DNA from: Brachypterus glaber
Taxonomy: Eukaryota; Arthropoda; Insecta; Coleoptera; Kateretidae
Assembly (NCBI GenBank): GCA_958510825.1
Contig: OY294049.1
Location: forward strand, 7,378,001-7,442,000
Length of the DNA: 64,000 nucleotides
Direction of reading: 5' to 3'
The notes beneath the pieces were generated by a model, which saw only the letters and a list, made by a program, of their open reading frames with translations, ran no database searches and had not been told where the DNA came from. Shown here piece by piece: positions 9,344 through 62,054 of this stretch. Position numbers and translations under genes: made by a program. Numbering within the stretch: the stretch's first letter is position 1; each line of letters starts with the position of its first letter.

Positions 9344-9422
9344 AGTTGTCCCTACTACCGATATGTGGCTCTGAAGAGTGCTAAAAAGCACGAAATCGAT
9401 CAGTCACTTCGGAGGGACGACT
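9344..9422 (+). ncRNA. Hammerhead ribozyme, type I, with long stem I
   Basis: All hammerhead core elements are present in order. Stem I 5' side is GTGGCT (9365-9370), then CTGAAGA (9371-9377). Stem II is GTGC (9378-9381), loop TAAAAA and GCAC (9388-9391), a perfect 4-bp helix with the G10.1-C11.1 pair. Then GAA, with stem III ATCGAT (9395-9400), then C9401 as the predicted cleavage base (AUC fits NUH). Stem I 3' side is AGTCAC (9402-9407), pairing with GTGGCT through 5 Watson-Crick pairs and 1 G-U. Stem I continues outward: CCGA/TCGG (9358-9361 with 9409-9412), then AGTTGTCCCT/AGGGACGACT (9344-9353 with 9413-9422), 10 pairs with one wobble. Stem III is a loop-less palindrome, as in ribozymes that act as dimers. 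The structure was worked out by hand; activity is inferred. Confidence 0.85.
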
Positions 9423-26092: not shown

Positions 26093-26927
26093 ATTCACAC
26101 CGCCAAAATTCTTGCCCCCCCCCTCCAGTTAATTTAAAAGGTAAAAAAAAATATTCTAAATACTTATGTGGGTTTAGTTCTACATTTTATTGGAATGCTT
26201 TATTACATTTATTTTAATGCATTGAGTACACCTCTAGAAATTAAATTAAAAAAATCGTATCAATAAATTTTTATTGAAAAAAATCGAAGCCGTCACAAAA
26301 TGTAAGAAACAAAGACGCCACCAACCAGTATATCCTCCTTTGTTCTCAAGCAAAACATTATCACGTTGTGCATGCCAATAAAAAGGTTGTTATAGGCTTC
26401 CTGCGATATGTTGTTCCATTCTTCTTGAGCAGCAACATTTAGCTCCTGAAGGGTGAACGGGGGATTATCTTTATTCAAAATAATCCTTTTTAGGATATCA
26501 CACACGTTCTCACAAGGATTTATGTCAGGTAAGTTTGCTGGCCAGTTCATTCTTTAAAAATTATCTTGCTATAGAAAATTGGTAACCCTTCTTGTGTGGT
26601 GGGGAGTGGCGTTATCATCCATAAAAATAAAATTATCTTCAATTTCGTTTCGTAATGGAACACGACTAGTTAAGTAATGTTTTGGGCGTAAATGTTTTGC
26701 TTGAGAACAGGGGAGGACATGTTGTTTTTTTTTGTGAAGACTTTGATTTTTTTCAATAAAAATTAATTGATACAATTTTTAAAATTTAATTTCTGGCTTT
26801 GACATGAAAAAAACCTTACATGCGATAAAGCATTTCAATAAAATGCAAAATTGAACCCAAATGTTTGATATAATATTTTTTTTAAGTTTAAAATTAATTG
26901 GGTCAAGAATTTTGGTGATAGGTGTAT
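26093..26927 (-). mobile_element. Tc1-like DNA transposon, internally deleted
   Basis: Terminal inverted repeats enclose a decayed transposase. The left end has CACCGCCAAAATTCTTGCCC, and the reverse complement of the right end has CACCTATCACCAAAATTCTT plus GACCC, both running on to TTAATTTAAA or TTAATTTTAAA. The left copy has an expanded C-run. At about 835 bp it is shorter than a typical 1.3-1.7 kb Tc1 element, and the N-terminal paired-like DNA-binding domain is not visible. Confidence 0.8.
26293..26775 (-). pseudogene. Tc1-family (DD34E) transposase remnant, catalytic C-terminal half
   Basis: Minus-strand frame. NFIFMDDNATPHHTRRVTNF carries the second catalytic Asp (DNA.PHH motif). WPANLPDINPCENVCDILKR carries the third acidic residue, Glu. 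Exactly 34 codons separate them, the Tc1 spacing. Two in-frame stops (TAG, TAA) lie in that interval at about 26554-26571. The first catalytic Asp and the DNA-binding domain are not seen. The last part (EEWNNISQEAYNNLFIGMHN) matches the usual Tc1 C-terminal helices. Non-functional. Confidence 0.85.
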
Positions 26928-35306: not shown

Positions 35307-35320
35307 TAACAAGCCACTTA
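35307..35320 (+). repeat. Target-site duplication, left copy (14 bp)
   Basis: TAACAAGCCACTTA, identical to 37442-37455 at the other end of the ribozyme-repeat insertion. Confidence 0.85.
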
Positions 35321-35367
35321 ATTTATTATTCCATCAATCTATTTTCTAATCATCGTACAGAGTGATA

Positions 35368-35412
35368 TTGGTAGACTGACAGTTTCGGGCTGCTGGCCCT
35401 CTTCAGTACCAA
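35368..35412 (-). ncRNA. Hammerhead ribozyme in the inverted unit
   Basis: The reverse complement gives the same 45-nt core as the direct units (CTGAAGA, GGGC/GCCC, GAAAC, GTC, with TTGGTA/TACCAA as stem I). Confidence 0.85.
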
Positions 35413-35536
35413 GAGTCAACTCTGCACGCTGATTAAGAAAACGTTTTTAGACTTTACTCGCAAAAGGAATATAGCCATTAGATTGATGTAGACTTGTGCA
35501 AAAAACGTTTTCTTAATCAGCGTGCAGAGTTGACTC

Positions 35537-35581
35537 TTGGTACTGAAGAGGGCCAGCAGCCCGAAACTGTCAGTCTACCAA
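35537..35581 (+). ncRNA. Hammerhead ribozyme, unit 1
   Basis: Stem I TTGGTA (35537-35542) pairs with TACCAA (35576-35581), 6 of 6. Core box CTGAAGA (35543-35549). Stem II GGGC/GCCC with loop CAGCA. GAA (35563-35565), then minimal stem III AC/GT around loop TGTCA. C35575 is the predicted cleavage base (GUC). Cleavage at each unit would release 354-nt RNAs. Structure by hand; activity inferred. Confidence 0.9.
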
Positions 35582-35890
35582 TATCACTCTGTACGATGAT
35601 TAGAAAATAGATTGATGGAATAATAAATTAATATTTTTATAATTTTGTTTAAAATTAAAAATTTCTGTCCTTACTAATTTTACGTCTAACCACCCGTTAG
35701 TGGTACTATGTGCTTGAGACACACAAGTCTTCAACTTGCTACCATTCAAAGTCTCCAGATAAGGAGAGGTATGAGTAGTTGTCTACATCTAGAAATAGAT
35801 GGCGCACAAGTCTACATCAATCTAATGGCTATATTCCTTTTGCGAGTAAAGTCTAAAAACGTTTTCTTAATCAGCGTGCAGAGTTGACTC

Positions 35891-35935
35891 TTGGTACTGA
35901 AGAGGGCCAGCAGCCCGAAACTGTCAGTCTACCAA
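35891..35935 (+). ncRNA. Hammerhead ribozyme, unit 2
   Basis: Identical to unit 1, 354 bp downstream. Confidence 0.9.
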
Positions 35936-36244
35936 TATCACTCTGTACGATGATTAGAAAATAGATTGATGGAATAATAAATTAATATTTTTATAATTTT
36001 GTTTAAAATTAAAAATTTCTGTCCTTACTAATTTTACGTCTAACCACCCGTTAGTGGTACTATGTGCTTGAGACACACAAGTCTTCAACTTGCTACCATT
36101 CAAAGTCTCCAGATAAGGAGAGGTATGAGTAGTTGTCTACATCTAGAAATAGATGGCGCACAAGTCTACATCAATCTAATGGCTATATTCCTTTTGCGAG
36201 TAAAGTCTAAAAACGTTTTCTTAATCAGCGTGCAGAGTTGACTC

Positions 36245-36289
36245 TTGGTACTGAAGAGGGCCAGCAGCCCGAAACTGTCAGTCTACTAA
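36245..36289 (+). ncRNA. Hammerhead ribozyme, unit 3
   Basis: As unit 1, but stem I 3' side is TACTAA, so one G-C pair becomes G-U. The fold is kept. Confidence 0.88.
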
Positions 36290-36598
36290 TATCACTCTGT
36301 ACGATGATTAGAAAATAGATTGATGGAATAATAAATTAATATTTTTATAATTTTGTTTAAAATTAAAAATTTCTGTCCTTACTAATTTTACGTCTAACCA
36401 CCCGTTAGTGGTACTATGTGCTTGAGACACACAAGTCTTCAACTTGCTACCATTCAAAGTCTCCAGATAAGGAGAGGTATGAGTAGTTGTCTACATCTAG
36501 AAATAGATGGCGCACAAGTCTACATCAATCTAATGGCTATATTCCTTTTGCGAGTAAAGTCTAAAAACGTTTTCTTAATCAGCGTGCAGAGTTGACTC

Positions 36599-36643
36599 TT
36601 GGTACTGAAGAGGGCCAGCAGCCCGAAACTGTCAGTCTACCAA
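36599..36643 (+). ncRNA. Hammerhead ribozyme, unit 4
   Basis: Same sequence as unit 1. Confidence 0.9.
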
Positions 36644-36952
36644 TATCACTCTGTACGATGATTAGAAAATAGATTGATGGAATAATAAATTAATATTTTT
36701 ATAATTTTGTTTAAAATTAAAAATTTCTGTCCTTACTAATTTTACGTCTAACCACCCGTTAGTGGTACTATGTGCTTGAGACACACAAGTCTTCAACTTG
36801 CTACCATTCAAAGTCTCCAGATAAGGAGAGGTATGAGTAGTTGTCTACATCTAGAAATAGATGGCGCACAAGTCTACATCAATCTAATGGCTATATTCCT
36901 TTTGCGAGTAAAGTCTAAAAACGTTTTCTTAATCAGCGTGCAGAGTTGACTC

Positions 36953-36997
36953 TTGGTACTGAAGAGGGCCAGCAGCCCGAAACTGTCAGTCTACTAA
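36953..36997 (+). ncRNA. Hammerhead ribozyme, unit 5
   Basis: Same TACTAA variant as unit 3, with G-U in stem I. Confidence 0.88.
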
Positions 36998-37306
36998 TAT
37001 CACTCTGTACGATGATTAGAAAATAGATTGATGGAATAATAAATTAATATTTTTATAATTTTGTTTAAAATTAAAAATTTCTGTCCTTACTAATTTTACG
37101 TCTAACCACCCGTTAGTGGTACTATGTGCTTGAGACATACAAGTCTTCAACTTGCTACCATTCAAAGTCTCCAGATAAGGAGAGGTATGAGTAGTTGTCT
37201 ACATCTAGAAATAGATGGCGCACAAGTCTACATCAATCTAATGGCTATATTCCTTTTGCGAGTAAAGTCTAAAAACGTTTTCTTAATCAGCGTGCAGAGT
37301 TGACTC

Positions 37307-37351
37307 TTGGTACTGAAGAGGGCCAGCAGCCCGAAACTGTCAGTCTACCAA
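37307..37351 (+). ncRNA. Hammerhead ribozyme, unit 6 (partial unit)
   Basis: Same sequence as unit 1. The unit ends about 90 bp further on, at the target-site duplication. Confidence 0.9.
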
Positions 37352-37441
37352 TATCACTCTGTACGATGATTAGAAAATAGATTGATGGAATAATAAATTA
37401 ATATTTTTATAATTTTGTTTAAAATTAAAAATTTCTGTCCT

Positions 37442-37455
37442 TAACAAGCCACTTA
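37442..37455 (+). repeat. Target-site duplication, right copy (14 bp)
   Basis: TAACAAGCCACTTA, matching 35307-35320. The bases TTA at its left edge are also found in the repeat unit, so the boundary is uncertain by 1-3 bases. Confidence 0.85.
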
Positions 37456-37563: not shown

Positions 37564-37622
37564 ATGACATTTCCAACTCTCGAGATGCTAATTATAAATA
37601 GCACCTCTCGAGTTGGAAATGT
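37564..37622. repeat. Hairpin, arms about 23 bp
   Basis: ACATTTCCAACTCTCGAG and its inverted copy CTCGAGTTGGAAATGT, with a short AT-rich loop. Confidence 0.8.
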
Positions 37623-61640: not shown

Positions 61641-61687
61641 TAAAGTAAAACGAATTTGTATTTCAGCATATATATGTATTTAAAATA

Positions 61688-61724
61688 GGCCTAGCTCTTT
61701 CGATCAAAAGATCATCTTCAGGGC
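61688..61724 (-). ncRNA. Hammerhead-like motif, left arm
   Basis: Minus strand: GCC, CTGAAGA, T, GATC-TTTT-GATC, GAA, AGAGCT, A, GGC. Core boxes are present. Stem III AG/CU has only a 2-nt spacer, and the cleavage triplet would be CUA. Stem II has one unpaired U at its base. Confidence 0.6.
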
Positions 61725-61955
61725 TTAGCTTCATCAGAGCTGATTAGAACAGAATGAGAGGTAGATTAAAAATATGGGAACATCACAGTTAAAAAGTTGC
61801 ACAGATTAAAATAATAAATATATAAATAAACAAAAATTTTTGACATAATGACAATTAAAAAGTATATATCAATATGTATATGTCATTATGTCAAAAATTT
61901 ATGTTTATTTATATATTTATTATTTTAATCTGTGCAACTTTTTAACTGTGATGAA

Positions 61956-61991
61956 GCCCTGAAGATGATCTTTTGATCGAAAGCGCTAGGC
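61956..61991 (+). ncRNA. Hammerhead-like motif, right arm
   Basis: Plus strand: GCC, CTGAAGA (61959-61965), GATC-TTTT-GATC, GAAA (61979-61982), stem III AGCGCT, A61988 as the predicted cleavage base, GGC. It differs from the left arm by one base in the stem III spacer. Confidence 0.6.
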
Positions 61992-62054
61992 CTATTTTAA
62001 ATACATATATATATATATATATGCTGAAATACAAATTCGTTTTACTTTATTCTA

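Follow-up and report, generated by a model that had tools for sequence, protein, structure and literature searches.

Metazoan non-LTR retrozymes are described as noncoding tandem units of 150–450 bp that carry a type I hammerhead ribozyme, have a GC content below 50%, occur as dimers to large multimers, are flanked by target-site duplications (TSDs) longer than 4 bp and lack the features of long terminal repeats (LTRs) (PMC7229834). Circular RNA has been demonstrated for them, and in animals their RNAs accumulate mainly as circles (PMC7229834). Penelope-like elements (PLEs) have been proposed as their movers, "a strong candidate" in view of the type I hammerheads and tandem copies of both and of their co-occurrence (PMC7229834), and are also named as likely partners elsewhere (PMC7761336). 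Plant LTR retrozymes, too, are hammerhead repeats that depend on another element for their movement, by way of circular RNA, and are characterized by a type III hammerhead, LTRs, a primer site, a polypurine tract, a 4-bp TSD and a length of 600–1000 bp (PMC7761336, PMC7229834). In the W-elements of Schistosoma, noncoding units are arranged in tandem, a type I hammerhead is present in some of them, and a possible TSD was noted once (PMC8490949).

PLEs encode a reverse transcriptase (RT) with or without a GIY-YIG domain (PMC11167929, PMC3846280). In rotifer PLEs the pseudo-LTR (pLTR) occurs inverted, one end bears a 31-bp tail and TSDs measure 8–10 bp (PMC3846280). With a lizard PLE studied in vitro, both strands of an AT-rich DNA target are cut and extended, and reverse transcription begins at two neighbouring internal sites, which accounts for the known tail of 30–40 bp; the hammerhead cut and RT start of this PLE lie 26 nt and 111–118 nt into the ORF, respectively, it starts at sites without homology to the cut DNA, and the protein is a predicted dimer (PMC11167929).

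Here we describe an insertion of about 2.1 kb in a 64,000-nt stretch of the genome of the beetle Brachypterus glaber (contig OY294049.1, positions 7,378,001–7,442,000 of the forward strand; hereafter the window). It shares the above sequence features of metazoan non-LTR retrozymes and departs from plant LTR retrozymes in its type I hammerhead, tandem units and 14-bp TSD. Judged by its sequence, the element belongs to the animal-type non-LTR retrozymes as a new family, known from DNA alone, in contrast to the metazoan retrozymes with demonstrated circular RNA. It additionally has an inverted arm and fixed start sites, neither of which appears in the available text of the metazoan account (PMC7229834); paired start sites are also not part of the W-element description in the corresponding portion of PMC8490949. 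Literature searches on retrozymes, hammerheads and Penelope, covering few subscription papers and no preprints, found no paired start sites in retrozyme insertions in the text available from these sources, and a search joining hammerhead ribozyme, retrotransposon and twin priming returned nothing. With PLEs the element shares head-to-head inverted and direct copies, TSDs, an AT-rich target, a hammerhead and two adjacent start sites, but its 354-bp unit is noncoding; since it contains no open frame of at least 75 amino acids, it is not itself a PLE and is PLE-like in its insertion only. The window copy is probably a non-autonomous, non-LTR retrozyme insertion moved in trans by a PLE reverse transcriptase/endonuclease.

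Anatomy of the insertion and its predicted ribozyme

The insertion extends from 35318 or 35322 to 37443 and is flanked by identical copies of TAACAAGCCACTTA at 35307–35320 and 37442–37455 (14/14 matches); the last 2–3 nt at both array ends are compatible with the unit sequence as well as with TAACAAGCCACTTA. Both arms are composed of the 354-bp unit alone, numbered here with unit 1 at 35501. The long arm (35501–37443, plus strand) spans 1943 bp, or 5.49 laps with a period of exactly 354, and differs between laps by only three C-to-T substitutions (36287, 36995 and 37138). The short arm (35318–35499, minus strand) is a 182-nt inverted partial unit with one hammerhead, corresponding by exact match to unit 304–354 followed by unit 1–131, and is the perfect reverse complement of 35804–35985. 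A single extra A, at 35500, separates the arms where they join head to head. The short arm places the first start site (unit ~127) at 35322, and the cDNA start of the long arm corresponds to the second (unit ~173). The unit has a GC content of 35.9% against 28.8% for the window, and a single unit folds much more strongly than its shuffles (z −5.6). Immediately to the right of the insertion lies a palindrome with 28-nt arms (37567–37622) that may represent a small foldback element.

Unit 37–81 carries the residues conserved in type I hammerheads, recognized by motif against the hammerhead consensus, with core and stems present in all window laps. The core CUGAAGA lies at unit 43–49, followed by a 4-bp stem II (GGGC/GCCC) and GAA; stem III has 3 bp (ACU/AGU, loop GUC), with GUC at the predicted cut at unit 75, and the 6-bp stem I (UUGGUA/UACCAA) extends into a longer helix. 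The first plus-strand hammerhead, from stem I to stem I', spans 35537–35581 with its predicted cut after C35575. Cores recur every 354 bp on the plus strand at 35543, 35897, 36251, 36605, 36959 and 37313, and the short arm carries one at 35406 on the minus strand. A pattern scan recovered these six plus-strand cores and one minus-strand core in the element and none in 20 mononucleotide shuffles of the window. In these respects the initial annotation was borne out: the exact periodicity over about 5.5 direct units, the inverted partial unit at the left, the absence of an open frame, the identical 14-bp flanks and a complete core in every unit were all recovered, including the core of the inverted arm, and the predicted cut falls at the nucleotide that it had named. 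What it had recorded as an inverted partial unit is, beyond that account, to be read as the second of two arms in a two-ended insertion.

Rfam returned nothing for the window at gathering cut-offs, and no hammerhead model even at E ≤ 10. The sole weak match at that level, MIR2599, fell below its own cut-off on both strands and was set aside because the 131-bp inverted repeat on which it lies is the foldback formed by both arms. When drawn with the outermost pairs omitted, the catalytic fold has a predicted energy of −28.2 kcal/mol, compared with −40.1 kcal/mol for the minimum-energy fold. Stem III with its loop, ACUGUCAGU, is nearly its own reverse complement, so that a duplex of two copies, with a single mismatch, has a predicted energy of −8.3 kcal/mol; action of the ribozyme as a dimer is therefore plausible on these models.

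Other hammerhead-like motifs occur in the window. The same pattern scan found one further core at 9371 on the plus strand, of the form CTGAAGA ... GAAA with a 5-bp stem II and an ill-defined stem III. A minus-strand core near 2222, reading GCC CTGAAGA AGCCTAAATATTAGGT GAAACGTTGGC, resembles the minimal hammerheads of PLEs. A search of viral and prokaryote contigs for the hammerhead pattern gave no exact match.

A dispersed family with two outer start sites

The 354-bp unit is dispersed through the 648-Mb host assembly. A genome search gave at least 197 unit matches, with 39 candidates scored among 381 at first look; the matches listed, a subset of the 197, resolve into at least 39 loci on nine contigs, comprising the window copy and 38 further mapped loci (L031–L068). 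Neither an absence of other copies nor one giant satellite block, two of the outcomes that the initial annotation had named as contrary to its reading, was found. As the search favours full-length, near-identical units, the mapped loci are the most similar copies rather than a random sample. Two head-to-head arms with both outer ends assigned are present in 28 of the 39. Twelve loci depart from a clean two-armed structure: five are single-armed (L034, L037, L051, L057 and L058), six are irregular (L035, L041, L045, L054, L065 and L043), and L061 is truncated in the sequence analysed.

Arms were defined by outward extension of exact matches, which yielded 71 arms of at least 40 nt. Their outer ends fall into two 25-nt bins in 66 of 71 cases, with 36 at unit 115–139, 30 at unit 159–183 and 5 elsewhere; the modes are unit 127 (10 arms) and unit 173 (14 arms). 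The distance between these two start sites is 46 nt; measured from the predicted ribozyme cut, the first lies 52 nt and the second 98 nt further on. Each arm uses a different one of them in 27 of the 28 two-armed loci with assigned ends, an outcome whose chance at even odds would be about 1e-7 for at least 27 of 28 and 7e-9 for 27 of 27. The exception, L043, is same-site by the bins; it is rearranged, diverged at its left end, and holds a remnant of the second site at its right end, and it is still counted against the rule. The longer arm may start at either site (the first in 17 of 27 loci). Seven variants are common to at least three loci, and six of them lie at unit 128, 131, 174 or 177. 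These six sit mainly in the outermost lap, as expected if copying ends just before these positions.

Target-site duplications were scored as exact direct repeats, each end being free to shift by as much as 4 nt, and mismatched left and right flank pairs were handled alike. At the 27 loci with one site per arm, duplications measure 0, 7, 9 and 11–16 bp (median 13), reaching at least 9 bp in 25 loci and at least 11 bp in 24. Among 702 mismatched flank pairs, 2.3% reached 9 bp and none reached 11 bp, which places the 14-bp duplication in the window beyond chance. The single-armed loci L051 and L058 also bear repeats of 12–13 bp. Targets are AT-rich, with 17–18% GC in the first 13 nt versus 30% in the flanks. 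They match the RNA beyond the first start site over a mean run of 1.6 nt (background 0.6) and beyond the second over 1.0 nt (background 0.2), a slight match that may reflect primer pairing or a start slipping by a few nucleotides.

Template, partner enzyme and alternative explanations

The predicted cut site is crossed by 59 of 71 arms, with 173 crossings in total, and the longest arm reaches 5016 nt; arms run for up to 14 laps. Inner ends are spread across the unit (KS p 0.18) and show no excess at the 5' end of a cut monomer, with 1 end within 2 nt of unit 76 where 1.0 was expected. Because arms pass through ribozyme sites that stayed uncut, the template, as read from the arms, is uncut at the crossed sites and is either a closed circle or an uncut multimer. 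At the head-to-head junction the arms overlap by 0–5 nt in 20 of 29 two-armed loci; an overlap of exactly 2 nt is seen in 11 of the 29.

A multimeric transcript as template, with the ribozyme dispensable for movement, is a substantial if less favoured possibility. Lap variants recur in L048, L056 and L038 (gapped arms and arms below 97% identity excluded), which is unexpected from a single-unit circle without later exchange. In L043 (850–3405), an 856-nt super-period of unit 162, 16 nt of filler and unit 30 is repeated within one arm. Both patterns would fit a template longer than the unit or a later exchange or duplication, and the lap variants can equally come from exchange after insertion. 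Inactivating the hammerhead does not impair use of the RNA by the lizard PLE in vitro (PMC11167929), in keeping with a multimer, but a multimeric transcript would be cut if its predicted ribozyme is active, and animal retrozyme RNAs occur mainly as circles (PMC7229834). Since the 5' end of a cut monomer is 52 and 98 nt away from the start sites, we further suggest that only closure would permit copying of a whole monomer.

Candidate partner genes were sought in the host genome, where at least 31 GIY-YIG matches at E ≤ 0.001 were identified (150 scored of 419 first-look candidates), with listed open frames of up to 716 amino acids. Pfam assigned RVT_1 and GIY-YIG to one of two PLE-type frames (L079) and GIY-YIG alone to the other (L070). 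A partner of the right predicted enzyme type is thus present in the genome. Within the window, no PLE gene was seen among 39 listed stop-to-stop frames of at least 75 amino acids, and Pfam gave no match for six of the eight frames of at least 110 amino acids, the other two consisting mostly of N. A minus-strand frame at 26296–26553 resembles, by eye, the end of a Tc1/mariner-type transposase. A foldback of about 410 bp at 61641–62049, with opposed arms that each carry a hammerhead-like core (GCC CTGAAGA ... GATC GAAA GCGCTA GGC), was first read as a solo PLE and then dropped as evidence, because related loci share the opposed arms and it is possibly a foldback/TIR element. Its relatives comprise at least 84 matches (40 scored of 230 candidates); the arms lie about 1.9 kb apart in two or more of the related loci, and the window locus may be a PLE relic or a foldback/TIR element.

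That the 354-bp unit is itself the pLTR of an autonomous PLE, its copies being internally deleted PLEs, is unlikely. PLE pLTRs do carry type I hammerheads and insert in inverted and direct orientation (PMC3846280, PMC11167929), and unit 71–107 (37 nt) matches positions 325–361 of L072, whose 3.2 kb include a PLE-type GIY-YIG frame, at 86% identity. This match is oriented opposite to the GIY-YIG frame, no full-length relative of the unit occurs in 12 PLE-type loci (L069–L080, 3.1–3.3 kb each, with partial PLE flanks), and the 3-bp stem III differs from the minimal PLE-type hammerhead as described in PMC7761336. Positions 310–400 of L072 form a diverged relative of unit 69–125, possibly from an older family or a pLTR fragment.

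Improbable, too, is a LINE-type insertion. In twin priming, known from L1 5' inversions, the first strand is primed at one nick and the other strand on the same RNA, leaving TSDs, an inverted 5' piece and a joint with microhomology. All three features are observed here. Both arms start at fixed sites, however, with two different sites in 27 of 28 pairs; no A-tail was found at either end of the listed loci, so the one-sided A-rich or fixed 3' end of an L1-type insertion is lacking; and inverted arms are the rule among the 39 loci rather than a minority.

An ordinary satellite spread by DNA circles or unequal exchange, with the 14-bp match arising by chance or assembly artefact, can be dismissed despite the tandem near-identical units and the later expansion that some arrays (such as L048) may have undergone, since insertions are dispersed, their outer ends are fixed and their duplications are locus-specific, the comparison with mismatched flanks refuting it for the 27 clean loci; the initial view of an integrated element, not an ordinary satellite, gains support from the same observations.

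A proposed PLE-type cycle and its meaning

Mobilization by a PLE-type enzyme matches these data best in its signature: two start sites used one per arm, duplications, and an inverted copy with a 'tail' correspond to what is described for PLEs of other animals, none from the host genome having been mapped end to end. Reverse transcription by another element's enzyme, proposed in the initial annotation, is supported by the dispersal of the copies, their target duplications and the two fixed start sites, while the ribozyme-processed multimeric or circular RNA that it took as the template is putative. By analogy the enzyme type can now be named as PLE-type, a step beyond that proposal; we infer the PLE identity from these shared features. 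Differences in detail remain. The cut-to-start distance of the lizard PLE is 85–92 nt by subtraction of published values (PMC11167929) versus 98 and 52 nt here, and our start sites are set apart by 46 nt against a published tail of 30–40 bp (PMC11167929), which is optional in PLEs according to the literature available, whereas one site per arm is found in nearly all two-armed copies here. TSDs of mostly 11–16 bp exceed the 8–10 bp of rotifer PLEs (PMC3846280). These larger tail and TSD lengths count against the PLE reading, as do the 12 of 39 loci that are not clean, the violation by L043, the two of 27 loci without a 9-bp duplication, the lack of a hammerhead match in Rfam and the slight target–RNA match, which differs from the homology-free starts reported for the lizard PLE (PMC11167929).

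In the proposed cycle, in which ribozyme activity, a circular template and an enzyme dimer are putative, tandem copies would be transcribed, the predicted hammerhead would cut after unit 75, and a host ligase would close the 354-nt monomers into circles. A PLE protein, perhaps as a dimer, would start near unit ~127 and ~173 and cut AT-rich DNA with a stagger of about 13 nt. Synthesis would then extend both target strands, each from its own site, over repeated laps of the circle; the resulting pair of cDNAs would end at random points and join head to head, often with a few nucleotides of microhomology, and fill-in of the stagger would yield the target duplication. A fuller version, to which we give slightly less than an even chance, is a symmetric two-stranded rolling circle, in which a dimeric PLE sits on the RNA circle at sites 46 nt apart with one subunit per cut strand, copies multiple laps and joins them head to head, the one-site-per-arm rule being general for PLEs. 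If true, this rule would account for the 'optional tail' of PLEs, and the RNAs would have to be closed, as otherwise no whole-unit copy could arise from a cut monomer.

On the question of how retrozymes move in animals, the ends of the young copies described here bring direct footprint evidence; PLE-type mobilization had previously been a proposal in the available account (PMC7229834), and the footprint evidence for it is new. Paired start sites offer a simple rule to seek in other retrozyme and PLE genomes, and the mechanism of retrozyme movement can now be put to the test with purified PLE protein and a circular or linear template. Furthermore, the footprint suggests why a circle-making ribozyme would help the element.
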